NCBI GenBank assembly: GCA_037042185.1
Contig: JAXQJY010000029.1
Span: 434,001 to 498,000, forward strand
Direction: 5' to 3'
DNA from: Sordariomycetes sp. S80-01Y
Taxonomy: Eukaryota; Ascomycota; Sordariomycetes
DNA: 64,000 nucleotides
This document shows, one piece after another, positions 44,243 to 62,444 of the stretch. The notes under the pieces were generated by a model. The model made no database searches. It saw only the letters and a list, made by a program, of their open reading frames with translations, and was not told the DNA's origin. The stretch's first letter is position 1. The number at the start of each line of letters is the position of its first letter. The position numbers and the translations under genes were made by a program.

Positions 44243-46269
44243 ATGCCGCCCAAAGTCAGGGACAAGGCCACTCCTAGCGAGAGAATCAGGAAACATCACA
44301 CCAGGAGTCGCGCTGGGTGCGCAACATGTAGAAAGAGACACATCAGGTGTGATGAAGCTCGGCCAGTATGGTGAGTAGCTAATGGATTCGTTCCCTGATG
44401 CCATTCTGCGTCCCTCCTTCACAGGTACCCATCGTCGGAAGCAGAAACTGTCATGTTTTCTGAATCGAATCCTGAAACCCGCAAGGGAGGGCTTGAACAT
44501 CCTGGCTGACTTCCGACTCTACAGCGTCAACTGCAGTTCTGGCTCACGGGACTGTGAGTATCCACCAGCAGCTATCCCTCTGAGAGAGCGGCGAGCCAAC
44601 GCCAAGCTAGCTCCTCCACCTGGGGCTCAAGAAGTATGGTCCGTAGGGCCATCATTCCACATCGAAGACCAGAGCACCACACCTTCAAGCCATGATAGCT
44701 CGCCGAGAAGTCGGCAACAGACACCATGCTCGTGGCATATAGTTCCTTCGAGGAGCATGGACCCCTTCGACACCCTTGCAATCAAGATGCCGTTCAAGAG
44801 CAAGCAGCTCATCAAATACTGTAAGCCCCTCTATACTCTCACTATTTTTTACTAAAGATCCTGACGAGCTGTGCAGTCTACGATACAGCGAATCATTTTG
44901 GAGTGGCTGCTCGTGACCCTAAGGATGATTGCCTAGCTATGGTGACCCACGACTCAAGGGCTCTCCGCAGCACTCTGATTCTCGCTGGCCTGCACTATAG
45001 CTGGAACATTGGCTCCTTATCAGCATTTGAGTCTACTATACTTCACCACAAAGTGGAGTGTATGCGGACAATCAACAATCTAATCAACGACTCTACTGAC
45101 AAGGCATTTACAACGTGCATTCAGCAAGTTGCCACTCTCACAATAGCAGAGGTTTGTGATCCTAAGACACGTGGATAGATGATAGGGCTGACATCGCTCC
45201 GCAGTGCTGCGCCGGGAATATGACGCTCTCCTACGCGCATCTAAGGGGCCTAACTGCAGTGATAGAGGCAAGAGATAGGCAGCGCAGGATTGCTCCCGCA
45301 GACGACGAGCTTGATGATGAGTTGGCAGACCGGTATCTCACCCTGTAGGTCGCACTGATCTCTTGCTCCCAAAACCCTGGCTAACGAACCCCCCGTGTTT
45401 ACAACTTCGTATACGGCCTCAAGTCGCGACTAAGTCATGCCGAGAATTTTGACCGGCTGTCAAAAGAGCTTCAACGCAAAGTATCAGGGCTTCCTTCTCC
45501 ACCATATGACCCCTCTTCGCCTCCAGAAGAGACCAGCAAGGATTATCTCGATTTCCGTCTTGGTGCAATTCGACTTATCCCGTCATTTCTATCTCCACCT
45601 CCAGCGGGAACCCCTGCGAAGCCTGTCGACGTTCCTGCTTTCTTGAAAGCTTTGCGTGACATGACATTGATGGCCACTGAAGCCCACCGGAGTCGCTGTC
45701 TGGAAGACAAGGCTCGCATTTTCCACTCGATGTGGACAGACGGCACGGCAACGCGGCTCTTTTTGGTATTTGTCGACTCGCACAGGCATTCATTCTTCGC
45801 TGGACGTCAAGTGCCTGACTGTTCCGATGGCCTTCTGGCTTCGGCGTGGATTGGCATAGCAACAGCCTCGGGGCTATATCTAAACAGCGTCTTGGATGTT
45901 TGGAACATTGGCCAACCTATTGAACCACGGATGCTACGACACTTCCTAAAAATACTCGAACGTGACGTCGACCTAACGCGGAACGTTCTGGACATTAAGG
46001 CCTCACCAGCGAGTGAGCTATGGTTGTGGAAGGCTTTTGTTGCAGTGTTGACGGTCAGACGGGCAGAAGAATCTGGTCCAGAATTCCGCAATGCGATGCA
46101 CGGCCTAAGGGATATATGGGTTGGAAAATTGAAGTTATGGTGTCAATCTTCGGGAGTGGACGAACTCAAGAAGGTCAGAGAAACCTTGGGCAGGATAGTG
46201 TGGCCGGACGGCGCCTTTGATGAGGATCTGGAGGAGGCAGCGTGGTCAGAAGTGACGACGCAACTATGA
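44243..46269 (+). CDS. Zn2Cys6 transcription factor (cluster regulator candidate 1)
   Basis: Exons 44243-44370, 44525-44820, 44877-45151, 45205-45344 and 45435-46269 encode about 557 residues. The zinc cluster is split by the 154-base first intron: CATCRKRHIRCDEARPV, then Cys across the splice, then NCSSGSRDCEYP, giving C2C6C6C2C6. The rest matches the fungal-specific regulatory region (STLILAGLHYSWNIGSL, then LYLNSVLDVWNIGQPIEPRM). The last intron is uncertain: family-like coding (NFVYGLKSRLS) begins near 45404 with no AG before it, so I used the in-frame CTAAG acceptor at 45434, which skips that segment. It is convergent with the racemase-family gene and may regulate the cluster. Confidence 0.8.
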
Positions 46270-46538
46270 TTATACAGCTGATATAAGGATATCATGACAC
46301 GATTATGTACGATATTTGCCCTCATAAGGTCTAGCCGAGTACGGTTTGGTTGAGCTTGACATGGACTAGCCTTTTCTTAACAGGTTAAAGGCATGGAGGT
46401 TCGAGCGGACAGGCTATTAGCGACGATTCAAAGCTCTAAACCGCATCATTTGCGAAAGCGCTCAAACTCCTCATCGTTGAAACTAATTTTCTTCACTTCA
46501 AAGAAAATACAGAGAACCATCTAACTAGCAACTTCAAC

Positions 46539-47555
46539 TTACTTCAGCTGGTATCCTTCTGGAAAAGGGTCATCTGGGTCGAGATACACTCGCTTCTCCC
46601 CTGTAATCCATGCCCTGCCTTTTATGTTTGGCACTACCGCTTCGTACTGTCCGACCTTACTGGTGCTTTTGATCTTTCCGACAAACATGGTATCGATGAT
46701 GCTCCTGAACCTGACCTCCTGGTCCGGCTCAACTTCGCCCCTCTCGTGCATGATTGCAAGGCGACACGAGCTCCCTGTCCCACACGGACTCCTGTCCAAC
46801 CTTCCAGGTGGGACGACGACTGTGTGTTTGACGGACAGACAGCCGTCCTTGTCCCGACCAAGCGGATCAGTGATGAGGGTACTGTTTATTCCCTTGATTG
46901 CGGGATTCTCCGGGTGGGCTGGCATGCACACTTCCAAAACTGCCTTCTTTGCTAACCGACCAACTTCCAACAGCTCTGTACTGCATTCTGGAGAGACCTT
47001 GACTCCCAGATCCTCCGCCTTGATCACAACGTACCATTGGCCGCCATAGGCAACATCTACGAGCATCTTTCCGTATCCCGGTAGCTCGATCTCCATGTCC
47101 AGCGCGTATGCGAAAGCGGGAACATTGTTGAAGGACACAGATTTACATGATCCGTCATCGCATTCGGCTGTTACAGTAATCATTCCAGCTGCTGAGTCCA
47201 GGTTCAGGCGTGTGATAGGCTCCTCTATGGCGACAATGCCAGTCTCCAGCAAGACCGTGGTTGTACAAATGGCATTGGACCCAGACATGGGCACCCATTC
47301 TCCAGGGGCCATGATCAAGAAACCTGCATCAGCCCTAGGATCACAAGCAGGCGTGATTATAATGGTGCTCATTTCTGGGCGTCCTCTTGGTTCGTTGTGA
47401 AGCAACTTGCGAAGACCGTCATATTTGTCCATGAATTTGAGAAGTTTGTCGTGCATGTTATTGGTTGGGATGTCGAGTACGCCACCGATAATAACGTCTC
47501 CAACCTCGCCTTCGGCATGGCATCCCACGATGGACAATACGCGTCTTGACTTCAT
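46539..47555 (-). CDS. Proline racemase / hydroxyproline epimerase family enzyme
   Basis: A single exon of 338 residues covering the full family length. The second catalytic Cys is present in DRSPCGTGSSCRLA (Cys258). The first active-site motif, usually MCGH, reads MSGSNAICTTT, so Ser91 stands in place of Cys. Ser/Cys pairs occur in other family members. The family includes proline racemase, 4-hydroxyproline 2-epimerase and trans-3-hydroxy-L-proline dehydratase. With a DapA-type lyase, a D-amino-acid oxidase and an aldehyde dehydrogenase nearby, a hydroxyproline 2-epimerase making the D-isomer is the best guess; a dehydratase is the main alternative. No targeting signal is seen. Confidence 0.88.
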   Translation of the reverse strand: MKSRRVLSIVGCHAEGEVGDVIIGGVLDIPTNNMHDKLLKFMDKYDGLRKLLHNEPRGRPEMSTIIITPACDPRADAGFLIMAPGEWVPMSGSNAICTTTVLLETGIVAIEEPITRLNLDSAAGMITVTAECDDGSCKSVSFNNVPAFAYALDMEIELPGYGKMLVDVAYGGQWYVVIKAEDLGVKVSPECSTELLEVGRLAKKAVLEVCMPAHPENPAIKGINSTLITDPLGRDKDGCLSVKHTVVVPPGRLDRSPCGTGSSCRLAIMHERGEVEPDQEVRFRSIIDTMFVGKIKSTSKVGQYEAVVPNIKGRAWITGEKRVYLDPDDPFPEGYQLK

Positions 47556-48130
47556 ATTGCGCTACTTCGATATTGAGACAGAAAACGTATCGTAAAATTC
47601 AGTTTTTTTCAAATTCAAGTGTATTCCTACGAGATGAGGTTGTGAGGGTCCTACATATGTGGCACGTATCTAAGGAAGCTCGGGGTCAGATTCTAGTCCA
47701 GATTGTCTGGAGGCGTCAGCAGAGTGGAGCAATGAGCGAGAGCGGGGTAACATTTGTTATGCACGGGAAAACCTTCCCAATTAATCAACAAGTGCTTGGT
47801 ATCAGCCACCCTGACATTTAGTGATTCAGCACAAGGTGGTGAGAGTCTTGAGTCTCAGGCTCATGCATATGCTCCAGGATACCAAGTTGAATATGATCAT
47901 GCATTCGAGTGTAAAGTGAGCTATGAGGCTAGGAGACAGTAGTACACAGGTCGATTGGTTCGCTAGCTCAGGTCTTTTATGCAATATCATTGGAAAGACA
48001 CGGTGAGGCTTTGACAAGTGTAGATCTCCTTGGGAGGCTATCTGGAAGTAGAACATCACCAGCATCGACAACAAGGATGAATTAAATCGTTCTGATCCCT
48101 CTACTTAATCTTTTTCTTTTAGCATTTGAC
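47556..48130. promoter_or_regulatory. Promoter region of the racemase-family gene
   Basis: About 575 bases between tandem minus-strand genes. Only short frames are present. It must hold the DapA 3' UTR and the racemase promoter. Confidence 0.4.
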
Positions 48131-49030
48131 TCATGCTTTTACGAGTTGAACACCAGCGGCTTGCAGATACCCAGCGACTTCAGCCTGAGCCTTCGCATCC
48201 AGCAGTGCAAACGGCTTTCTCATGCCACCCGTCGACCACCCGCGCTGCTCCATGGCAGTCTTGACTGCGGCGCCATAGTTGCTAGACTCCAAGAATTTGC
48301 AGATTGGGTAAACCCTCTTCCAAATCTCCCGGCTTTTCCGCAAGTCGCCCTTGACAGCCAGCGCGTTCCACAGCTCGACTGACAGCTCGGGGATGACGTT
48401 TGATGCTCCCCAAATAGAACCCTTGGCACCGGCAGCCAAACCGTAGAAGGTCAAAGTATCCCAACCGTTGAAAGTAGTCACTTTGTCCTCGAGGGTGAAG
48501 AGAAGCTCGGTGAGGGCGGGGCCGTCACCAGATGTATCTTTGAGGTACTTGACGCCAACATCTGAGAGTCCAGCAAGTTCTGTTGGTGAGAGCTTGACGC
48601 CGCTCGCGGAAGGAATGTTGTAGTACATTATGTCGACCCCCGAAGCTTTGTGGACTTCCGCCATGTACTCCCTGACTTCAGCGTAGTTGGGGGCATCGTA
48701 GAAGGGCGGGACCACCATCAAGGCGGCAACTTTGAGCTTGGAGGCATGGATAGCAAGGTCGACAGTCTCAGATGTAGATAGAGTTCCAATACCAGCCACA
48801 ACCGGTACCCTGCCAGCTGTGCTCTTGACAACTTGCTCTAACACAGCCTTGCGCTCCGCTTGGGAGAGCGCTGTGAACTCTCCTGTGCTACCTCCCGGTA
48901 CGAGTCCATGCACTCCCGCGTCAATCAAGCGATTAACGTGAGTGTCGAGGGCATTAAAATCCACAGAGCCATCAGAACTGAAAGGCGTAATAATGGCGAC
49001 CTGAATACCGCCGAGCTTGTAGGAAGGCAT
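48131..49030 (-). CDS. DapA-family lyase/deaminase (N-acetylneuraminate lyase superfamily)
   Basis: A single exon of 299 residues from ATG 49030; codons further upstream lack an in-frame ATG. The TIM-barrel family features are intact: IITPFSSDGSVDF, GSTGEFTALSQAER (carboxylate-binding loop), catalytic Tyr137 in YYNIPSASG, and the Schiff-base Lys164 in VKYLKDTSGD. The family includes dihydrodipicolinate synthase, 2-keto-3-deoxy acid aldolases, and 1-pyrroline-4-hydroxy-2-carboxylate deaminase. Fungi make lysine by the aminoadipate route, so lysine synthesis is unlikely. The neighbours favour the deaminase, which yields alpha-ketoglutarate semialdehyde and ammonia. It is divergent from the D-amino-acid oxidase. 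Confidence 0.88.
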   Translation of the reverse strand: MPSYKLGGIQVAIITPFSSDGSVDFNALDTHVNRLIDAGVHGLVPGGSTGEFTALSQAERKAVLEQVVKSTAGRVPVVAGIGTLSTSETVDLAIHASKLKVAALMVVPPFYDAPNYAEVREYMAEVHKASGVDIMYYNIPSASGVKLSPTELAGLSDVGVKYLKDTSGDGPALTELLFTLEDKVTTFNGWDTLTFYGLAAGAKGSIWGASNVIPELSVELWNALAVKGDLRKSREIWKRVYPICKFLESSNYGAAVKTAMEQRGWSTGGMRKPFALLDAKAQAEVAGYLQAAGVQLVKA

Positions 49031-49929
49031 TTCGGACAGTCGGGTTTTAATCGACAAGAGCAGATCAGGTCCTATGTTGGAACAAAGCAGAGTTTAGGTG
49101 TTCAAGACCAGTTCACAATCTAGGAAGGTAAGAGTGTTAATTAGTTTAGGAGCATGAGAAAGGTATAAATCCAAGATGAGCATTCCATGGTCTACGGTAA
49201 GTAATCGCGCCATAAATGCGGCCACTGGCCCACCTTGGCCATGATGTATCATAAACGCACGTCGACGAGTCTGGAGAATTTCAAAGATCCGCAAGCGTTT
49301 TCATCGGAGCATGTAAGCTCACACATCATGAGATCACGACGGTGGCGTTGCCCGGCAATACCTTCTGTTCACGCGGGGCTGCTGACGAGAGGGGGGCAAG
49401 AGGAGGAGGGGGCTCCGCAAGTCAACACCGTCAATCACAAAGACGATAGGGTGCTTAGAGAAAGTGACAATACTGCTATGTTCTGAACAAGGATGTCAGG
49501 CTATCGAATTACGCGGCCTATCAGCCCCTCACTGCTGGTTTCAGCAGGCTTTACCGGCCTTCACACAGAAGGGTCTGGCAGTCTCTGGACGGAGTAGCCA
49601 ATGAATTTGCACAATTCTAATCTTCATATACGGCAACTCGATCTCCTAGGCAGGCATTTTGCTGGGTAGTGTCCTGGATCTCCTGATAATGTCTCGATTT
49701 GGAAGTCGCTTATGCTATCTCTTTTGTTTCATGAAGCAACTCCACACGCGGAGTTCCGCGCTTGCCCACGATGCGCAGAACGGGATGAGCTTCCTGGATA
49801 TGCTTGAGAGCTGAGATAGACAGAGATTTTTGCGTTCGATGGAATTTATGATTTCGCCTGTATCTTGCTATGGCCTTTCTCTGTTCTGCTTTCGAGTAGC
49901 TGAAGCCTGTGGTCGCGATCCTTGGGAAG
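49031..49929. promoter_or_regulatory. Divergent promoter of DapA-like and D-amino-acid oxidase genes
   Basis: About 900 bases between two divergent cluster genes, suggesting co-regulation. Several HGATAR sites are present (for example CGATAG 49444-49449 and TGATAA 49684-49689), not clearly above chance. CCTGATA followed by CTCGATT at 49682-49699 resembles CCTGATA...CTCGATT before the aldehyde dehydrogenase gene (57014-57032). Confidence 0.4.
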
Positions 49930-51200
49930 ATGACAGTGAACATCGTAGTACTCGGGTGAGCTTCCTCTCATCAAAGAGGACCTCATAACTAATCATTGGT
50001 CAGCGCTGGGGTTTCTGGCTTGACTTCGGCTTTGCAGCTAGCCAAAAACCCGGGAAACTGTGTTACAGTCGTCGCTCGGCACATGCCAGGCGACTATAGC
50101 CCAGAATATGCATCTCCATGGGCTGGTGCCAATTTCCAACCGTAAGCTGAAATACCTTTCCCCCTGAATCGATTGCGAATGGACTTAACCCAAGACTCAG
50201 GTTCTCGGCGGAGAAGGAATGCCGATGGGAGGAGCAATCGTGGCCCGAAATGTCACGCCTAGCCGCACATGTTCCTGAGGCTGGCATTCATTTTCAAAGT
50301 ACGCCAATCTTCGGCAGCTAGTTTCAGGATCCAATGGGCTTCTGACATTCTTATCTAGAAAGCCACATTTATCGACGTCAAAAAGACGTCGAGACGGGCG
50401 CGACTTCATTCGATTCGATGTTCATACAAAATCCCTGGTACAGTCGCCTCTTCCCCGACTTCCGCGAACTGCCCAAAGATGAACTACCTTCTGGAGTTGA
50501 CTCCGCTTGTGAGTTCACCGGTATCTGCATCAATACTGCATTATACCTACCGTGGCTCGTGGGTCAGTGCAGAAGGCTAGGGGTCGTCTTCCGTCGCGGC
50601 GAGGTGCGCCATATTAATGAACTCCAAACACTACATCATACGAGGACGAAAGCAGACGTAATCATTAACGCATCTGGTCTTGGATCAAAGAACCTCGGTG
50701 GGGTTGAAGACCAAGACATGGCCCCGATCAGAGGACAGATTGTCCTCATAGAGAACGAATCGCCCTCCATGTACAATATTTCGGGTACTGACGACGGTCC
50801 TGATGAGGTTTCCTACGTCATGACGAGAGCTTCTGGTGGTGGCACCGTCCTCGGGGGAACTTACCAGAAAGGCAGTTGGGATCCCAATCCTGACCCAGAG
50901 ACATCCCGGAAGATCATCGAGAGAGCAGTTGCCCTGCGTCCCACCATGGCGGATGGACGAGGTCCTAGCGGCATCCGGGTCGTCCGCGAAAGCGTGGGTT
51001 TGAGACCATACAGGAAGTCAGGGGTCAGAGTTGAGGCAGATCTATCCACTTGCGGAGATGGGACACTGGTGGTCCATAACTACGGCCACGCTGGATGGGG
51101 CTACCAAGGATCATATGGGTGCGCTAATTATGTCGTCGAGCTGGTGACAAAATTCGTCCAGGGCAATTTCCAACCCAAAGTTTTAAGGGCAAGGCTGTAG
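49930..51200 (+). CDS. D-amino-acid oxidase family flavoenzyme, peroxisomal
   Basis: Four exons (49930-49955, 50004-50141, 50201-50298, 50359-51200) encode 367 residues. The FAD motif GAGVSG is at residues 9-14 (split after Gly9 by intron 1). ASPWAGANFQPF, DVIINASGLGSKNLGGV, the substrate Arg in VGLRPYRKSGVRVE, and HNYGHAGWGYQGSYG are all typical of D-amino-acid oxidases. The protein ends in ARL, which fits the peroxisomal PTS1 consensus. The enzyme oxidises D-amino acids to imino acids with release of hydrogen peroxide. In this context its substrate is probably cis-4-hydroxy-D-proline, giving 1-pyrroline-4-hydroxy-2-carboxylate. Introns are 48-60 bases. Confidence 0.92.
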
Positions 51201-51582
51201 TCAAATACATATGACTACTTGTGAGAACTATACCCTCTGCTTTAACAGAAGTCCAACCTGGATACTTGATTCCGGAAACTACAGCGCCGAATCTCTGCTG
51301 CTTGTTGAGTTTGATCCCTCCTTGCAACGAATAACTGTCCGCACGCATTGTAAGTCATTCAAGGTGCTATAGAGTCAAATGCAGTAGGAAGAGAAGAACA
51401 CAGAAATTACATGACATGTTGATCTCTGGTCCGTGTCGATTGATCGAGTAATTCAGGGCTCCCAGAGCAATGGTAGTCAAAGTAGGGGACAGTTCCTTGT
51501 TAACTGACTGATACCATGATTATATACTTCCATGGGTCCAAGATAACAGTACAGGGTTGTTTTAGGCCCTTCCGATACGATG
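51201..51582. other. Convergent spacer inside the cluster
   Basis: 382 bases between the stops of the D-amino-acid oxidase and the second regulator. Nothing beyond the expected 3' UTRs is seen. Confidence 0.5.
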
Positions 51583-53994
51583 CTACTTATCCATAACAGA
51601 AGACCACCCAATTGTCAAGTCTCCCGTTTGTTTGCGCAACTCCCATATCCTTGACACCGTCTCTTTGGTTGGTTTCGGCGTGAAGAAGAAACCAAGACTA
51701 TCAATTATATCAAGAAGCTTCAATGCCTTCTCTTGTAAGTCGATTGTTACAGCTTCTGAAGCGGCAATGAAGGTCGCCCATGCCAAACTCGGAACTAAAT
51801 CGTGGTCCCTGATCATGTCCTCCACACATGATTCAAGGTAGTGGAGGGCTTTGAAAACGGCGTCTTGTAACAGCATTGCATTGACGCCGTGTACTCTCCG
51901 ATAGAAGTAGATGATAAGGCCTTGATGCAACGCCATCGTCATGAGATGCTTCGAGTGGTGGTCCAGGAGGCCCTCATGATCACCCCCTTCCAGCCCGTCA
52001 TGCAGAGGCTGTCTCACAGGCCCCGTGACTTGGGACCCGCTTGGTATTGACCATGACCAAATACTCTGTTCCAAAGTCTTGATGTGGTGTGCGAGAGCTC
52101 TTGAGGTCTGAGGATTCTTGCTAGCGATCGTTTCAAGTTGATTTTTGTCATTGGCTAGTGACACAGTCTGGGAGACCAAAGTCATGATTGACTCTGGTAT
52201 ACCATATATCATGGGATACATGGTTCTCGACCAGCGTGCCTGGGATTCGAGATGAATATCCCGAAGTCCCTGTTCCCTGGACTTCTCAAGAGTGCTATCC
52301 AGGCCCGCATTCAGAGAATTCTCGGCGACACGAAATGCCCGGGAGTTTTCTATGGACAATGATCCAGTCCCCACGCCCCGTTCAAGGTTGGGGGTCTGGT
52401 CGAAGCTGCTCACACTCTCGGAGAAGATGCGTAGATGAGTGTACATGTGATGAAGGAGACGGGCATCATTGCACTGGTGTGCCTGCTCGAAGCCGTAAAG
52501 ACGAATCAGCCGCTCAGCATCTAGCAAATAGATGTTGGCTGATCTTGTGTTTTGGTAGAACTAGTAAAGGTTAGTGGGGACTTCAAAAGACTGCTTCTCC
52601 TATGTTTGATGTCCAGGTACGAAAATACAAGGTTCACGATTACGTATAACTTGGCTTTGGCGGAGGGCAGTTCAACATACCGAGGTCATGGCTAGAGCCA
52701 AAATGGCCATCAATAACTCTTCGTAGGTAGCTTTGTGCGGACCTGTGAGCTCGTGCTGCAGCGCTTGTTGAAGATGAGTTTGGGCCTTTTTCAGACATTG
52801 CGTACCAACTGTCCACCAGTCGCCTTGGGGACATGGTGAAGTTCCAGACCTATGTAAGAGAAAAGCGCTATGTGCGCATAAAGTTGGTAAAATGGCGAGC
52901 CGGGTATGCGAAGTGGTGTTCCATAGTATCAACTCCGAGAACGTCTTTAGAGCACAAGGTAGGAAAATAGTCTGTAATGCTGACTTGCTGCCTCCTCGTA
53001 TAGTGTCGATGGTACTTTGGGAATGCTGTTTGTAGTAGCGAAGCAGAGTTTCGGCATGTTCCGGGATATTGGATATCTCCCGACTTGGTGTTAGTGAGCG
53101 AGGTCTCGGTACAGAAGATCGTGGATTTCTCTCCACTCCAACTTCTGGTTCCTCTGGATCAGTCCAGCTGGTTTGATTCAGCGTTGGGGACATCCATCCC
53201 ATGTTAGAATAAATGGGGCCCCCAGGATTGGTGTCGAAGTCCATGTGAAAGGTTGAGAATCCAGGGTCCAGAAGTATAGACGGGTCAAGTATATCTCCCT
53301 CATTCACATGTTTCTCTCCAATGATATCACCTAAGGGACTGGAGAAGTCATCCATCCCTATACCACTGAGCTGCCCCAGCCAGTCTGTTCTAGGTATATC
53401 TTCTGCTCCCTCGTCATTTGGGTCACCAACGTCGATAAGTTCCGTAACAGTACCAATTGATTTGGTGTCAGTAGGATCTGGTATGAGACTCTTATCCGAA
53501 GCCAACTGGTTTTGCTTTTCTTGGGCGCTGAAAACGCCAAAGGGTCCCTTAGCAAAGCCTTCAGATGCGGTAAAAGAAAGCTTCGAGTGACTTCCATGGT
53601 ATGCGCCATCAATCTGGGCCAGAAGATGGTCCAATTCAGTACCAGACTTTGCACAAGCCGATAACTCTTTGCTCATGACGCGGCGTTCCTCCTCTACGTG
53701 CCCGTGTCAGCCGCAAGCCCTAATCATGGGATGTTGGCATAACTACTAACCAGTGAACATCTGGAAGCGATATTCCGGAGCTTTATGCGATTGGGTTTGA
53801 TCTCCAGAGCCATCGGTTGAATCATCAGTGACCCAGAACAGGCGTGGGGCATATCCGCCGCATGGTATGCCTAGCCTTCGACAGACACCACACTCTGGCT
53901 GGCCCTCGTCGCATTTGGCGTGACGACTGCGACAGGTCCGGCAACCCGTAAACGTCCGAGTGCGTTCATCCTTGGATTTTCCAGGTCGTCTCAT
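51583..53994 (-). CDS. Zn2Cys6 transcription factor (cluster regulator candidate 2)
   Basis: Three exons (53994-53751, 53693-52681, 52560-51583) encode 744 residues. The zinc cluster lies near residues 18-45 (CRTCRSRHAKC, then CGVCRRLGIPC) with C2C6C6C2C6 spacing. A long acidic/Ser-Pro region follows, then the fungal-specific regulatory part (PEHAETLLRYYKQH, TFSELILWNTTSHTRLAILP, NIYLLDAERLIRLYG). Introns are 57 and 120 bases. It lies centrally between the oxidase and the reductase/dehydrogenase genes. This position is typical of a pathway-specific regulator, which is an inference from place only. Confidence 0.87.
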
Positions 53995-55488
53995 TTGGGA
54001 AGTGCATTCGACGCAAGCGACTGGGGTAACTGACCGCGAATATGCTCACCGGAAACCGGGGCATGCAAAGCCGCGGCGGATAAAGCAGGTGGGCGACGTA
54101 TCGAGGAGAGGGAAATGAGTCAAGATTAGCAATTTCTAGAGAAGGCAACCGCAATTGATAAAATCAAACATTTGTGATGGTCGTCCTGCGGGTGGCAGAC
54201 GGTCTTGGAACCGGATTAGCGGGGCATCTTGGATTCACAAATTGAAAGAGGAATGTTTCCCCGGTCACTGTTTCGCCCCACTCCTTTACCACGAGGCTTC
54301 AAGATAGGCGGAGTTTGGTTGTCCTAGCGCAGCGTCACACATACATTCACGGGGGCAGGGATTCGTTATTTACATTGTATCCTCTACTTCGTGTTAGACA
54401 ACCCGGGGATGAACAGAACAAGTATCACATGCTGCAGTCATTGACAACTGGTGATGAAGTCTTCTCAATCTGATCAAAAGAGAGTAGCGGCGTGATGCGG
54501 ATACCAAGTCAAAGGAAACGACATTTTAAGAGTCCTTGGTTTCCCGTCTTTTCAGGATATGTATAAGTCTTCGCCGCGCAGACGCTTCTCGATCGTTTCT
54601 TCGACACTCGCAGCCTGGATATGACTTTGGACCGTGAATAAGAATTAGAGAAGTGGTGGGGGTTATTCTGACTTAACTTTGACTTTTCGACTGACCCTGC
54701 AAACAGCGTAATGGATATCAACAGGTCCTCTCAGATGCTTTCTCGGGAACCTAGTCGAGCATTCAGAGGTTGGCCAACCTGGGTTGACCACAACCGCATA
54801 GCCAACGGACATATTGACTGGCTTTGTTGAACAACCACCATCGGATGCTTTCCCACGGTCAGTCTGAGTAGAGGGTGTGTGGGAAGTTGAAAATGCCTTA
54901 GTCTATTCAAGTCGAGTGAGGCAATCATTATTCCACATCTTCTTTCTTCCCGAACGTTCGCAATTAAGTCCTCCCTCGGTCCCGTATGCCTATCTTCATG
55001 GACGATAACGCTACCAGCTTAGATCAAATTGCGATAACGTTGGGTGCTGGGAGCTCAAAATATAGTTCCATCAACGTTATTGAGGCCTCACGTCACGAAA
55101 GACACCAATATTCTCTTTGAGTGAGCCATCACAAGGGGGGAAGCGGCACGTTAGCCGCCAAGTGCTGGATAGGGGGTACCTGGCGAGGGTGAGGGGCCGT
55201 CAAGCGGCACGCAATTGTGCGCTTACAAATTGGGAAAGTGAACACGCCTTGTGCGCGACATCGCAAGGCGCGCCCAATCACCAAGCGCAACACGTTAGCT
55301 TTCGACGTCATGTCGCAATTGCTGAACAATGGTCGCATTGGTGATGGTGTCTCTTTAACTCAAAACCCGTAGCTCTCCGTCTTCGATGCACTGATACTAC
55401 CCCTCATCAACATCAACGCAATCGTTCGTGACAATCATAATCCTATCCTTCGACGGCCACCCAACTTTGAAATCACTTAGCATTTGCA
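53995..55488. promoter_or_regulatory. Divergent promoter between regulator 2 and SDR
   Basis: 1.5 kb with no supported gene. CTGATA at 55391-55396 followed by CCCCTC at 55400-55405 resembles the arrangement upstream of the aldehyde dehydrogenase gene (57015-57028). No operator can be assigned with confidence. Confidence 0.4.
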
Positions 55489-56718
55489 ATGACCAGATTG
55501 TTCCTGTGAGCCTTTCGGTTTCAACATGTAGAGAAAATAGCGAGAACTTGAGGGCTGACGGGGTTTGCAGACTTGGTGCCACTGGCTTTGTTGGAGGTCA
55601 GGTCCTCCACGAGCTGGTCCGAAAGTACCCCAAATTTCAAATCTCGGCTCTCGTGCGCGACGCAAAGGCTGCTGAAACCATTTCGAGCGCGTTTCCGAGC
55701 GTCAATGTCGTGGTAGGGAGTTTGGACGATGCCGAAATTGTGGCGGATGAAGCCTCCAAAGCTTCTGTCGTCCTCAGTATGTCGGCTATCTATCAAATCT
55801 ACAACATGATCCCTAATAGTCCCTAAGATGCCGCATCAAACAAGCACATTGCAGGGGCGCGCGCGATCCATGAGGGGTTGAAGAAGAGGGACTCTCCGTG
55901 TGAGTAATGACACTTCATGTCCGGGACGCGTTGCTGAGCTGCCAAAGCCTACTGGATTCAAATTTCCGGCGCCAGCGTTCTCGCATTCAGAGACCTGAGC
56001 TCGCCCTCCTACGATGTCGGTCTTCCGGGGTCCAAAGTCTACGACGACCTCGATAATGTCTCCGAAATTCGCTCCTTGATCACCGACCATCCCAAGCGCG
56101 AAATTGACAACTACCTCCTCAACGTTTCAAAGACTAGCCCTCAAATTCGGACAGCCATAGTGATTCCCCCCATCATCTACGGCAAGGGCGAGGGTCCCGT
56201 CAACCAGCGCAGTGTCCAGATCCCGGCGTTATCGAAGGTGACTCTCGAAAGAGGCCATGTCGTGAGGGCGGGGAAAGGTGAAAACAAATGGAGTTATATC
56301 CATGTTGCGGATGTTGCGCGGCTGTTTACGGATCTGGCAGAGCAGGCTGCGCAGGGAAGAGACGATGTTGGTTTGTGGAACAATGACGGGCTTTACCTGT
56401 CGACAGCCGGCGAGGTGGTAAGTCTGAGTATTAATCTGTCATGACATTCGCTAATTTTGGCAACAGAGCTTCGCAGAGATCTCCGACCGGGTCAGCAAAG
56501 CGGCCAACGAGCAGGGCCTCATCAAGAGCACTGAAGTTGAGGAATTGTCGAAGGCGGAATCTGATAATACTCTCCCTGCTGGATCCATCTTCTTTGGTTC
56601 GAATGCCGTAGGCGTTTCTAAGAGGGCTGCTGAGCTGTTTGGGTGGAAGCCCCAGGAGAAGGGGCTTGATATTGAGATTCCCCGCGCTGTCGCGGAGGAG
56701 GCCAGCCTTAAAGCATAG
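55489..56718 (+). CDS. Atypical extended SDR / NAD(P)-binding epimerase-like protein
   Basis: Five exons (55489-55505, 55571-55776, 55828-55899, 55948-56417, 56467-56718) encode 338 residues. The first exon has only 17 bases. The N-terminal dinucleotide motif reads LLGATGFVGGQVL, preceded by MTRLF, and NVVVGSLDDAEIV follows as in NmrA-like and nucleoside-diphosphate-sugar-epimerase-like proteins. The active-site-like part is SYWIQISGASVL, with AIVIPPIIYGKGEGPVNQ and WSYIHVADVARL further on. The usual YxxxK pair is not evident, as in atypical SDRs. Its role in the cluster is unknown; a reductase for a cyclic imine or semialdehyde by-product is conceivable. Confidence 0.83.
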
Positions 56719-57189
56719 GATCAAGTAAATATGTGAACAAGATGAAGAATAAAAATGCTTATAGCTAACTCAAGCTGATCTTGTAGGCTGGTCAAACCAC
56801 TCCACCAGCGTCACAGCGTCTTTCCCACTTTCACACAATAGGCAGGCTTCCGCGGATTAGCATCGACAACTGGCTGCTATGGGTAATGATGTCTCAGAAT
56901 ATTGCAAAAATGCCCCTTCCCTTTACCCCTCCAAGGCGGAAGATACCCCTCATGACGTGGGGAAGTTCTGCCCTGTACCTAGGTCTGTAAATGGTATCCC
57001 GATAAGGGTCGTTCCTGATAGACCCCTCGATTGATAAGACAGAGGGTGCGGCTGCTAAATTGGTACTCTTGTCTGTGTTTCACCCAAACCTAAAACATTT
57101 GGTTGAGCTTCATCTATAACTTTGAGATTCTTCACTGCCGGGTTTTTTTCTCTCTAACCTTCCTTTCCGCATTGGTCGACTCGTACGAA
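56719..57189. promoter_or_regulatory. Aldehyde dehydrogenase promoter with three GATA sites
   Basis: Three GATA motifs fall within 38 bases: GATAAG 57001-57006, GATAG 57017-57021 and GATAAG 57033-57038, each 16 bases from the next. AreA/NIT2 nitrogen regulators bind HGATAR, often as pairs. This fits a gene for use of an amino acid as nitrogen source. Functional binding is inference. Confidence 0.5.
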
Positions 57190-58827
57190 ATGACACCCGC
57201 TTCTGTCCACCTGCACGCGCCAAACGGCGTTAAGTGGTCTCAGCCTACTGGTCTCTTCATCAACAACGAGTTCGTCAACTCAGCAGAGGGCAATACAATC
57301 ACCTCAATCGACCCGGCGTAAGTGTGAAACTTCTACATGTAGTCAGATTACCTATTGACAGCAATGCAGAACCGAGGAGCCCATCGCGACGGTTCAAGCC
57401 GCTGGTCCCAAGGATGTGGACGTCGCAGTAAGAGCCGCCCAGAAGGCGTTCAAAGACCCAAGTTGGAAGCTCCTACCTGCCACAGATCGCGGCTCTTTAA
57501 TGTACAAGCTTGCCGATCTCATGGAAGCAAAGAAGGGGCTCTTTGCTACCATTGACGCCTGGGATAATGGTGAGTTGGCGGCCCGCTGCCCTCTCGCAGT
57601 CGCCTTTACGCCTCCTTCGCCCAAACCACTAACACACCGCCAGGCAAGACTTACAGCGAAGCCCTTGAGAACGACATCCCTGAGGCCATATCCGTGATCC
57701 GCTACTATGCCGGCTGGGCGGACAAGACTTACGGCCAGACCATCTCCACCACTCCGCAGAAGTTCGCATACACACTGCGCCAGCCCATTGGCGTGGTCGC
57801 CCAAATCATCCCCTGGAACTATCCCCTTTCCATGGCGACATGGAAGCTTGGTCCCGCGCTGGCATGCGGCAACACCGTTGTCTTGAAGCCAGCGGAGCAG
57901 ACGCCGTTGAGCATTCTTGTCTTCGCGCAGCTGGTCAAGGAGGCTGGATTCCCGCCTGGCGTCGTCAATATTGTGAACGGATTGGGGAGGGAGGCCGGGC
58001 CGGCTCTTGTAGGCCACGACTTGGTCGACAAGGTGGCCTTCACCGGCAGCACGGCGACTGCATCGCAGATCATGGGAATCGCAGCCAGGACATTGAAGAA
58101 CATCACTCTCGAGACTGGCGGAAAGAGTCCTCTTCTCGTTTTCGACGATGCGGATATGGAACAGGCGGTGAACTGGTCGCACTTTGGCATCATGTCCAAC
58201 CAAGGTCAGATCTGCACCGCGACCTCGCGCATCCTCGTCGACGAGAAGATCCATGATGACTTCGTGAAGAGCTTTCTGGCCAGGGCGGAGAAGATCAGCG
58301 TAGTGGGAGATCAATGGTCCGAGGGCACTTACCAGGGACCTTTAGTGTCGAAAGCCCAGCATGACCGCGTGTTGGACTATATCAAGATTGGCCAAGACGA
58401 AGGGGCGAATTTGGCCTCTGGCGGCAAGGCTTGCATCCCAACCTCTTCTGGGAAGGGCTACTTCGTCGAGCCTACCGTTTTTACCAACGTCTCCCCGAAG
58501 ATGCGTGTCTTTCGCGAAGAGATCTTCGGCCCCGTTGTCGTCATCGTCCCGTTCGGGACGGAGGAAGAAGCAATACAACTCGCCAACGATACGACGTACG
58601 GTTTGGGAAGCGCCATATTCACCAGAGACCTTGAGCGGGCACATCGTGTTGCGTCGGAGATCGAGTCCGGTATGGTTTGGGTGAACTCAAGTCAGGACTG
58701 TGATGCAAGGGTGCCCTTCGGTGGCGTGAAGCAGAGTGGGATTGGAAGGGAGCTGGGCGAGGCTGGGCTAGAAGCCTATAGTCAAGTGAAGGCAGTGCAT
58801 GTGAACATGGGGAACAGACTAGAGTAA
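57190..58827 (+). CDS. NAD(P)-dependent aldehyde dehydrogenase
   Basis: Three exons (57190-57317, 57370-57569, 57644-58827) encode 503 residues, the usual ALDH length. The sequence has IPWNYPLSMATWKLGPALA (Rossmann start), KVAFTGSTATASQIM, the general base Glu266 in LETGGKSPLLVF, and the nucleophile Cys300 in NQGQICTATSRIL, spaced as in ALDH class 1. It ends with PFGGVKQSGIGRELGEAGLE. The best reading in this cluster is alpha-ketoglutarate semialdehyde (2,5-dioxovalerate) dehydrogenase; from sequence alone it is a general class-1-like ALDH. I start at ATG 57190; an upstream in-frame ATG at 57103 adds a hydrophobic, non-family stretch. Confidence 0.92.
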
Positions 58828-60929: not shown

Positions 60930-62444
60930 ATGGCTTCCCGTCCGCAGAACATTGGCATCAAGGCCATTGAGATCTACTTCCCCAGCCAGGTACGTTCCGC
61001 TGCGTCGCTCCGAAGTCGCTGCCCCTCCCACACAAGAAAAAAGCGACGCCACCCCCTGCGACCAACACCAGCTAATTTCTCGCCAAACAGTATGTCGAGC
61101 AGTCCGAGCTCGAGAAGTTCGATGGCGTCTCCGCTGGCAAGTACACCATCGGCCTCGGCCAGACCAAGATGTCCTTCTGCGACGACCGCGAGGACATCTA
61201 CTCCTTCGCCATGACGGTCACCTCGCGCCTCCTCAAGAACTACAACATCGACCCCAAGTCCGTCGGCCGCCTCGAGGTTGGCACCGAGACCATGCTCGAC
61301 AAGTCCAAGTCCGTCAAGACGGTCTTGATGCAGCTCTTCGAGGGTAACAACAACCTTCAGGGCGTCGACAACATCAACGCCTGCTACGGTGGAACTGCTG
61401 CTTTCCTCAACACCGTTGACTGGATCGAGTCGTCTGCCTGGGACGGTCGCGACGCTGTCGTTGTGGCTGGTGACATTGCTCTTTACGCCAAGGGCAATGC
61501 TCGTCCTACTGGTGGCGCCGGTGCTGTCGCCATGCTCGTCGGCCCTGACGCCCCTGTCGTTGTCGAGCCTGGTCTGCGCGGCACGTACATGCAGCACGCT
61601 TACGACTTCTACAAGCCCGACCTGACCTCCGAGTACCCCTACGTCGATGGCCACTTCTCTCTCACTTGCTACAGCCGCGCTCTTGACGCTGCCTACAAGG
61701 ACTACTGTGCCCGCGAGGCTAAGCAAGCCAACGGCTCTGCTACCAACGGCACGGAAGATGGCAAGACCAACCTCGACCGCTTCGACTACCTGGCTTTCCA
61801 CGCGCCTACCTGCAAGCTTGTTCAAAAGTCTTACGCTCGTCTGTTGTACCACGACTACCTGGCCAACAATGAGCTCCCTGCCTTCGCCGAGGTCGCTCCT
61901 GAGATCAAGGATATGGACTACGAGAAGTCCTTGACGGACAAGGTCGTCGAGAAGACCTTCCTCGGCCTCACCAAGAAGCGCTTCCAGGACCGTGTTAGCC
62001 CCGCCATCCAGGTCGCGACCATGTGCGGCAACATGTACTGCGCCAGTGTCTGGGGTGGTTTGTGCTCCATTCTGAGCTTCGTCGAGCCCAGCGCCCTTGA
62101 AGGCAAGCGCATTGGTCTCTTCTCCTACGGATCTGGCCTTGCCGCTAGCTTCATCTCTTTCCGCATCAACGGTGACGTTTCCAAGCTGAACAAGACCCTC
62201 AACATCCCTGCGCGTCTTGAGCAGCGCCGCGCGTTGGCTCCCGAGGAGTATGAGAAGGTAAGAACCCTACCGCCCAGTTCAATGCGACAACGCTAACAAA
62301 TCTCAGTACTGTGACCTCCGCAAGCAGGCCCATCTCCAGAAGGACTTCTCTCCCAAGGGCGATCCCACAACCATCACCCCCGGCACCTACTACCTCGACA
62401 AGGTTGACGACATGTTCAAACGCGAGTACTCGGTCAAGGCGTAA
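60930..62444 (+). CDS. ERG13: Hydroxymethylglutaryl-CoA synthase
   Basis: Three exons (60930-60989, 61091-62257, 62307-62444) encode 454 residues. The enzyme condenses acetyl-CoA with acetoacetyl-CoA to HMG-CoA, the second step of the mevalonate pathway in the cytosol. It opens [20 protein letters not shown] across the first splice. The catalytic Cys118 is in [14 protein letters not shown], and [17 protein letters not shown] and [20 protein letters not shown] hold the other active-site residues. [10 protein letters not shown] lies near the C-terminus. A CT-rich leader and biased codons suggest strong expression. Introns are 101 and 49 bases with canonical ends. Confidence 0.96.

Follow-up and report, generated by a model that had tools for sequence, protein, structure and literature searches.

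Plant extensins and collagen are rich in hydroxyproline, and its breakdown in bacteria follows known routes; the question raised by the locus described here is whether an ascomycete holds a comparable set of genes for 4-hydroxyproline. The locus occupies positions 44,243 to 58,827 of a window of 64,000 nucleotides from Sordariomycetes sp. S80-01Y (assembly GCA_037042185.1, contig JAXQJY010000029.1, positions 434,001 to 498,000; contig C12 below, in a genome of 30.9 Mb on 16 contigs) and comprises seven genes. The original prediction had named four of them as a proline-racemase-family epimerase, a D-amino-acid oxidase, a DapA-family deaminase and an aldehyde dehydrogenase, accompanied by two Zn2Cys6 regulators and an SDR; gene models built with GT-AG splicing for all seven, together with Pfam matches, confirmed each of these families at the positions listed in Table 1. 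Our analysis suggests that the block is probably a cluster for hydroxyproline breakdown by the bacterial-type 4-hydroxyproline route. The chemistry proposed for the fungus is taken from the bacterial pathway, in which, as far as the consulted excerpts of its description go, neighbouring genes for a D-amino-acid oxidase, a DHDPS-family protein and an aldehyde dehydrogenase mark the 4-hydroxyproline route (eLife 2014 e03275). By this analogy, from which we infer both the substrate and every reaction, the proline racemase superfamily enzyme, with its Ser91/Cys258 pair, would epimerise trans-4-hydroxy-L-proline to cis-4-hydroxy-D-proline, and the D-amino-acid oxidase would use O2 to convert the latter to pyrroline-4-hydroxy-2-carboxylate and H2O2, probably in peroxisomes. 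The DapA-family enzyme, forming a Schiff base on Lys164, would then remove water and ammonia to give 2-oxoglutarate semialdehyde, which the aldehyde dehydrogenase would oxidise to 2-oxoglutarate; one or both of the Zn2Cys6 proteins may regulate the block, and the SDR-like protein may also have a role in it.

One line of evidence comes from the first enzyme. In this protein, Ser91 (in the motif SGSN) and Cys258 (in SPCGTG) form the catalytic pair, and the Ser/Cys pair is kept in all 120 listed homologues, of which those named to species are all fungal; here, as for the DapA-family enzyme and the oxidase, the homologues listed are the best 120 matches. According to a figure legend, Ser/Cys is the pair of the crystallised 4-hydroxyproline epimerase B9JQV3 and Ser/Thr that of the 3-hydroxyproline dehydratase B9K4G4 (eLife 2014 e03275). 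One main-text sentence of PMC4113996 names B9K4G4 as the Ser/Cys epimerase, whereas the Figure 5 legend and other passages give B9JQV3; judging from these passages, the labels in the main text appear to be swapped, and the legend is followed here. Ser91/Cys258 is one of the two combinations (Cys/Cys or Ser/Cys) that characterise the bacterial epimerase pathway, and the Ser/Thr signature of the dehydratase is absent, the second position being Cys258. In an alignment of 92 bacterial open reading frames (ORFs) and 11 fungal proteins, the window protein included, 67 rows carried Ser/Thr, 24 carried Ser/Cys (13 bacterial and all 11 fungal) and 12 carried Cys/Cys. From 447 confirmed candidates the 80 best bacterial loci were taken for comparison, several of them on short contigs, and the identity of the window enzyme to them did not exceed 46%. 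When a tree was built with the Ser/Thr rows randomly thinned to 22, the 37 sampled fungal-type rows (window included) formed one clade (support 99/98), within which the window enzyme fell in a subclade of 13 (100/98), with the bootstrap not fully settled. On these grounds, we propose that this protein is a trans-4-hydroxy-L-proline 2-epimerase.

A second line of evidence is the oxidase. The protein classifies as an ordinary eukaryote-type D-amino-acid oxidase, its closest match in the PDB being a D-amino acid oxidase, 7ct4_A (2e-130), and its gene places an FAD oxidase of the D-amino-acid oxidase superfamily (PF01266) beside the epimerase, as in the bacterial route, a likeness at the superfamily level only. 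Together with 12 listed proteins of at least 68% identity, it formed a clade of 13 (100/99), separate in the tree from 33 other listed oxidases. Eight of these 12 lie on contigs of at least 10 kb, and six of the eight, one of them from a near-identical strain, have an epimerase or DapA match from the lists on their own contig; only one of the 108 other listed oxidases has one, on a 6.9 Mb contig. The best species-named matches of both the epimerase and the oxidase include Plectosphaerella, Colletotrichum and Sarocladium. Since the genome holds two further oxidase matches elsewhere (55% and 50% identity), the cluster oxidase looks like a specialised duplicate, and we propose that it acts as a cis-4-hydroxy-D-proline oxidase. 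It ends in ARL, which we take to be a PTS1-like peroxisomal motif, and a PTS1-like tripeptide stands at the end of 10 of the 12 clade members listed, compared with 53 of the 108 others; the enzyme is probably located in peroxisomes. A search of 95 bacterial loci (4047 ORFs) with the window oxidase as query gave no match at E 1e-6. Because fungal oxidase and ornithine-cyclodeaminase-type (OCD) seeds find no bacterial matches, such seeds are uninformative on bacterial neighbours of these kinds. An initial tblastn search with the fungal proteins was too insensitive.

The DapA-family enzyme keeps the residues needed for Schiff-base chemistry, as Lys164, the Schiff-base lysine, and Tyr137 were invariant in 15 aligned proteins. 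True DHDPS enzymes carry an arginine in the loop following the tyrosine; here this loop reads YNIPSASG, without it. A role in lysine biosynthesis is unlikely, since the aminoadipate route supplies lysine in fungi. The best long match among the PF00701 loci of the same genome reached 32%, and a clade of 16 (100/100) in a tree with 81 rows joined the window protein to 15 of its listed homologues; the species-named members of this clade are fungal. Pseudomonas- and rhizobial-type DapAs linked to proline racemase genes fell in another clade of the same tree (97/91). Orthology between the fungal protein and the bacterial linked DapAs was considered and set aside, as the tree gave it no support, with backbone forks unresolved and some branches long. 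Since the tree does not join the two, the deaminase role proposed for the fungal enzyme rests on its genomic context. The bacterial DapA genes that neighbour proline racemase genes are spread over several distinct clades, which gives the impression of repeated recruitment. The presence of a DapA neighbour was also tried as a means of telling Ser/Cys from Ser/Thr bacterial loci and did not discriminate (3 of 13 against 16 of 53 loci, the pair not having been read in 14). A search of one bacterial phylum (398 genomes) with the fungal DapA protein gave matches at 1e-40 in 12 genomes, and the best of these (lowest E-value and, at 38%, highest identity), at a locus labelled L173, adjoins a Cys/Cys proline racemase gene. 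This locus was the only one among 15 DapA neighbourhoods examined to contain a proline racemase ORF, and the tree does not place its DapA with the fungal clade. The region L173:7023-17000 holds the Cys/Cys proline racemase gene, two DapA genes and two aldehyde dehydrogenase ORFs, and also, as recognised by eye, a transporter gene and an enolase-superfamily-like gene.

The original prediction had named conservation of the gene set across Pezizomycotina as a check. The comparison across other fungi covered the three core genes, those of the epimerase, the oxidase and the DapA-family enzyme; among the matches listed, at least two of the three appear to share a contig in six other sources. The grouping of these genes also looks like more than chance within the genome itself, where the proline racemase family has 2 matches, PF00701 has 15 at about 13 places and the oxidase has two other good matches. 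Co-location was read directly from neighbouring locus tags or, indirectly, from identical base counts of the longest contigs carrying the matches. All three genes were found on a 263,113-base contig of Colletotrichum truncatum; the epimerase and the oxidase on a 172,385-base contig of Plectosphaerella plurivora, under locus tags NLU13_6678 and NLU13_6679 of Sarocladium strictum and on a further contig of 30,964 bases; the epimerase (FZEAL_5356) and the DapA-family enzyme (FZEAL_5354) in Fusarium zealandicum; and the DapA-family enzyme and the oxidase on a further contig of 17,178 bases. A near-identical strain, not counted among the six, carries all three on a contig of 1,205,685 bases. In three of these sources, independent of one another (C. 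truncatum, F. zealandicum and the 17 kb contig), the contig that carries DapA also carries the oxidase or the epimerase, so that DapA seems to belong with them. Two other coincidences were set aside, namely a 2,596-base match (P0024/P0203), which concerns small contigs from different sources and was taken as chance, and the 6,932,952-base contig of P0136/P0294 (Xylariales sp. PMI_506), which is too long to mean co-location.

Several results weigh against the proposed cluster and have to be set beside this evidence. None of the seven genes of the block was seen to encode a transporter. Among the 120 matches listed, a cluster-type oxidase was found for three of the seven named species of the window epimerase subclade (P. 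plurivora, C. truncatum and S. strictum) and for none of the other four (Conoideocrella, Purpureocillium lilacinum, Tolypocladium and Clonostachys), where a different oxidase may be in use or the gene models may be wrong; because each list holds the best 120 matches only, a missing member proves little. In F. zealandicum the epimerase falls outside the window subclade and the DapA protein is not part of the closest DapA group, and Alternaria has relatives of the DapA enzyme at 66-68%, yet is not named among the 120 epimerase matches listed. The lack of tree support for a link with the bacterial DapAs, described above, belongs here as well. The PDB relatives of the aldehyde dehydrogenase are mostly of the ALDH1, ALDH2 and BADH types, the same genome has paralogs of it at 71% and 64%, and its score with the 2-oxoglutarate semialdehyde (KGSA) dehydrogenase model NF042993 was 430.6 bits against a cut-off of 770; its top NCBIfam model, betaine-aldehyde dehydrogenase, was also below cut-off. 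In five promoter regions of the block no 8- to 10-mer occurred in at least four of the five. For the first enzyme, the 4-hydroxyproline epimerase model NF010578 gave 240.3 bits where its cut-off is 376, and the top NCBIfam model was 3-hydroxyproline dehydratase at 359.4 bits, below cut-off; no NCBIfam model passes its own cut-off with this protein.

Part of these results leads to the best surviving alternative, which overlaps with the proposed cluster and does not exclude it: the three core genes would be a real unit, whereas the aldehyde dehydrogenase, the SDR-like protein and one or both regulators would be unrelated neighbours, the semialdehyde being oxidised by an enzyme encoded elsewhere. 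We regard this as a substantial possibility, though hardly the leading one. The aldehyde dehydrogenase gene lies 6 kb from that of the oxidase, beyond a regulator and the SDR gene, the protein has the paralogs mentioned above, no motif common to the promoters was found, and the co-location found in other fungi concerns the core alone; nevertheless, the pathway calls for an enzyme of this class, and its gene closes the block. Duplication of a general gene, the copy then becoming dedicated, is a usual origin of fungal cluster members, and a dedicated duplicate of a general aldehyde dehydrogenase would fit it. By its place in the pathway, we propose that the enzyme is a 2-oxoglutarate semialdehyde dehydrogenase. 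The SDR-like protein had no NCBIfam match at 1e-5, and both Zn2Cys6 genes are cluster members by position only. The view that the block looks co-regulated gained no backing from the promoters: six 7-mers were found in at least four of the five regions, fewer than in random window regions (mean 10.1), and no CGG/CCG arrangement was common to all five. A direct repeat of CGG/CCG with a spacing of 18 occurred in three of them and also in the control promoter, these pairs being given without statistics. Such a null result is compatible with co-regulation and does not exclude it. The earlier assignment to a 4-hydroxyproline cluster is supported for the core, through the Ser/Cys pair, the co-location and the separate oxidase clade, and falls short in that the DapA protein lies outside the bacterial linked clades and co-regulation lacks sequence support.

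It is unlikely, in our judgement, that the first enzyme is a 3-hydroxyproline dehydratase instead of a 4-hydroxyproline epimerase. Besides its top NCBIfam model, the three best PDB chains speak for a dehydratase, since the dehydratase 4k7g (277.8 bits) and the two better-scoring chains 4k8l and 1tm0 all have SPTGTG, with Thr as second residue, where the window protein has SPCGTG; in addition, mixed and promiscuous activities are described for cluster 3, which contains 4k7g and 1tm0, in the excerpts consulted (eLife 2014 e03275). However, the second catalytic residue of the fungal protein is Cys, like that of the Ser/Cys epimerase, and a dehydratase route would have no use for the oxidase and the DapA enzyme. 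The proline racemase family has two matches in the genome, the second being a Cys/Cys gene at a locus of contig C4 (approximately 387400-395100), where nearby genes are those for an amino acid permease, a proline dehydrogenase and an OCD-type protein. By analogy with the eLife 2014 paper, this neighbourhood suggests a possible 3-hydroxyproline or proline cluster, and the C4 and C12 loci look like two different imino-acid pathways. Queried with the C4 OCD-type protein, the genome gave three matches, on C4 and C10, and none on C12 (the MLD2 type was not searched for), which also argues against a dehydratase route at the window locus.

D-amino-acid oxidases accept D-proline, and fungal DapA-family proteins also have aldolase or dehydratase roles. 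A pairing of the proline racemase with the oxidase for D-proline or general D-amino-acid scavenging, with DapA in a separate sugar-acid pathway, would suit those properties and the 15 PF00701 matches at about 13 places in the genome, but it is very improbable given the three independent sources in which DapA is found on one contig with either of the other two core genes, and given that D-proline oxidation yields no evident substrate for a DapA-type enzyme.

Table 1. Gene models of the block, with positions in the window and Pfam matches (E-values).
Product	Position	Strand	Exons	Protein	Model	Pfam
Zn2Cys6 transcription factor 1	44243-46269	+	44243-44370, 44525-44820, 44877-45151, 45205-45344, 45435-46269	557 aa	gene model	PF00172 3.9e-8, PF11951 1.5e-4
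Proline racemase superfamily enzyme	46539-47555	-	one	338 aa		PF05544 2.8e-110
DHDPS/DapA-family enzyme	48131-49030	-	one	299 aa		PF00701 7.9e-61
D-amino-acid oxidase	49930-51200	+	four: 49930-49955, 50004-50141, 50201-50298, 50359-51200	367 aa	gene model	PF01266 6.8e-39
Zn2Cys6 transcription factor 2	51583-53994	-	53994-53751, 53693-52681, 52560-51583	744 aa	one of four open models	PF11951 5.7e-38, PF00172 2.5e-9
SDR-like / NAD-dependent epimerase-dehydratase family protein	55489-56718	+	five	341 aa	hand-made model	PF01370 1.5e-12, PF13460, PF05368
Aldehyde dehydrogenase	57190-58827	+	57190-57317, 57370-57569, 57644-58827	503 aa	one of three open models	PF00171 4.1e-182

In these models the proline racemase and DapA genes are intronless and the remaining five genes have two to four introns each. 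To the right of the block, a hydroxymethylglutaryl-CoA synthase-like gene was recognised by eye at 60930-62444, and it likely marks the right edge.

If the proposed cluster is real, it offers a testable gene set for the use of hydroxyproline by some ascomycetes and likely functions for the Ser/Cys proline racemase clade, the D-amino-acid oxidase clade and the DapA clade, whose members mostly have generic names at present. In the literature covered, which was incomplete and left most subscription journals outside, we found no account of a 4-hydroxyproline epimerase pathway in fungi. It is conceivable, and we put it forward tentatively as a nearly balanced case, that fungi built the route mostly from their own enzymes: a Ser/Cys epimerase clade, a specialised duplicated D-amino-acid oxidase that is probably peroxisomal, a DapA deaminase whose clade is fungal, and an aldehyde dehydrogenase of general type that arose by duplication. 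The fungal and bacterial pathways would then be convergent as pathways, and in some of the Sordariomycetes the oxidase clade would go together with a single epimerase subclade.

Three known systems invite comparison. A reported gene pair of a filamentous fungus is likewise related to hydroxyproline, although it concerns 3-hydroxyproline, and the passages available on it mention neither a 4-hydroxyproline epimerase of fungi nor a fungal D-amino-acid oxidase or DapA-family enzyme. The 3-hydroxyproline dehydratase 4k7g belongs to the same superfamily as the first enzyme and shares its SGSN motif, but has Thr in place of Cys258, and its route would call for a reductase of the kind for which C12 gave no match with the C4 OCD-type protein. 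The closest likeness is to the bacterial trans-4-hydroxy-L-proline epimerase pathway, where, in the excerpts consulted, the same four enzyme superfamilies adjoin, as 4-hydroxyproline epimerase (4HypE), cis-4-hydroxy-D-proline (c4Hyp) oxidase, pyrroline-4-hydroxy-2-carboxylate (Pyr4H2C) deaminase and KGSA dehydrogenase, and where the Ser/Cys pair of the fungal enzyme is known from 4HypE (eLife 2014 e03275). The fungal DapA enzyme also keeps the Schiff-base lysine and the tyrosine of the DHDPS family. In contrast to the bacterial pathway, the genes are fungal, with introns in five of the seven and no transporter seen in the block, the oxidase is of a different, eukaryotic type, the DapA enzyme is of a different lineage and the aldehyde dehydrogenase is of a general type. 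Judged by this comparison, the fungal cluster would work like the bacterial pathway, and we do not class it as the same cluster by descent.

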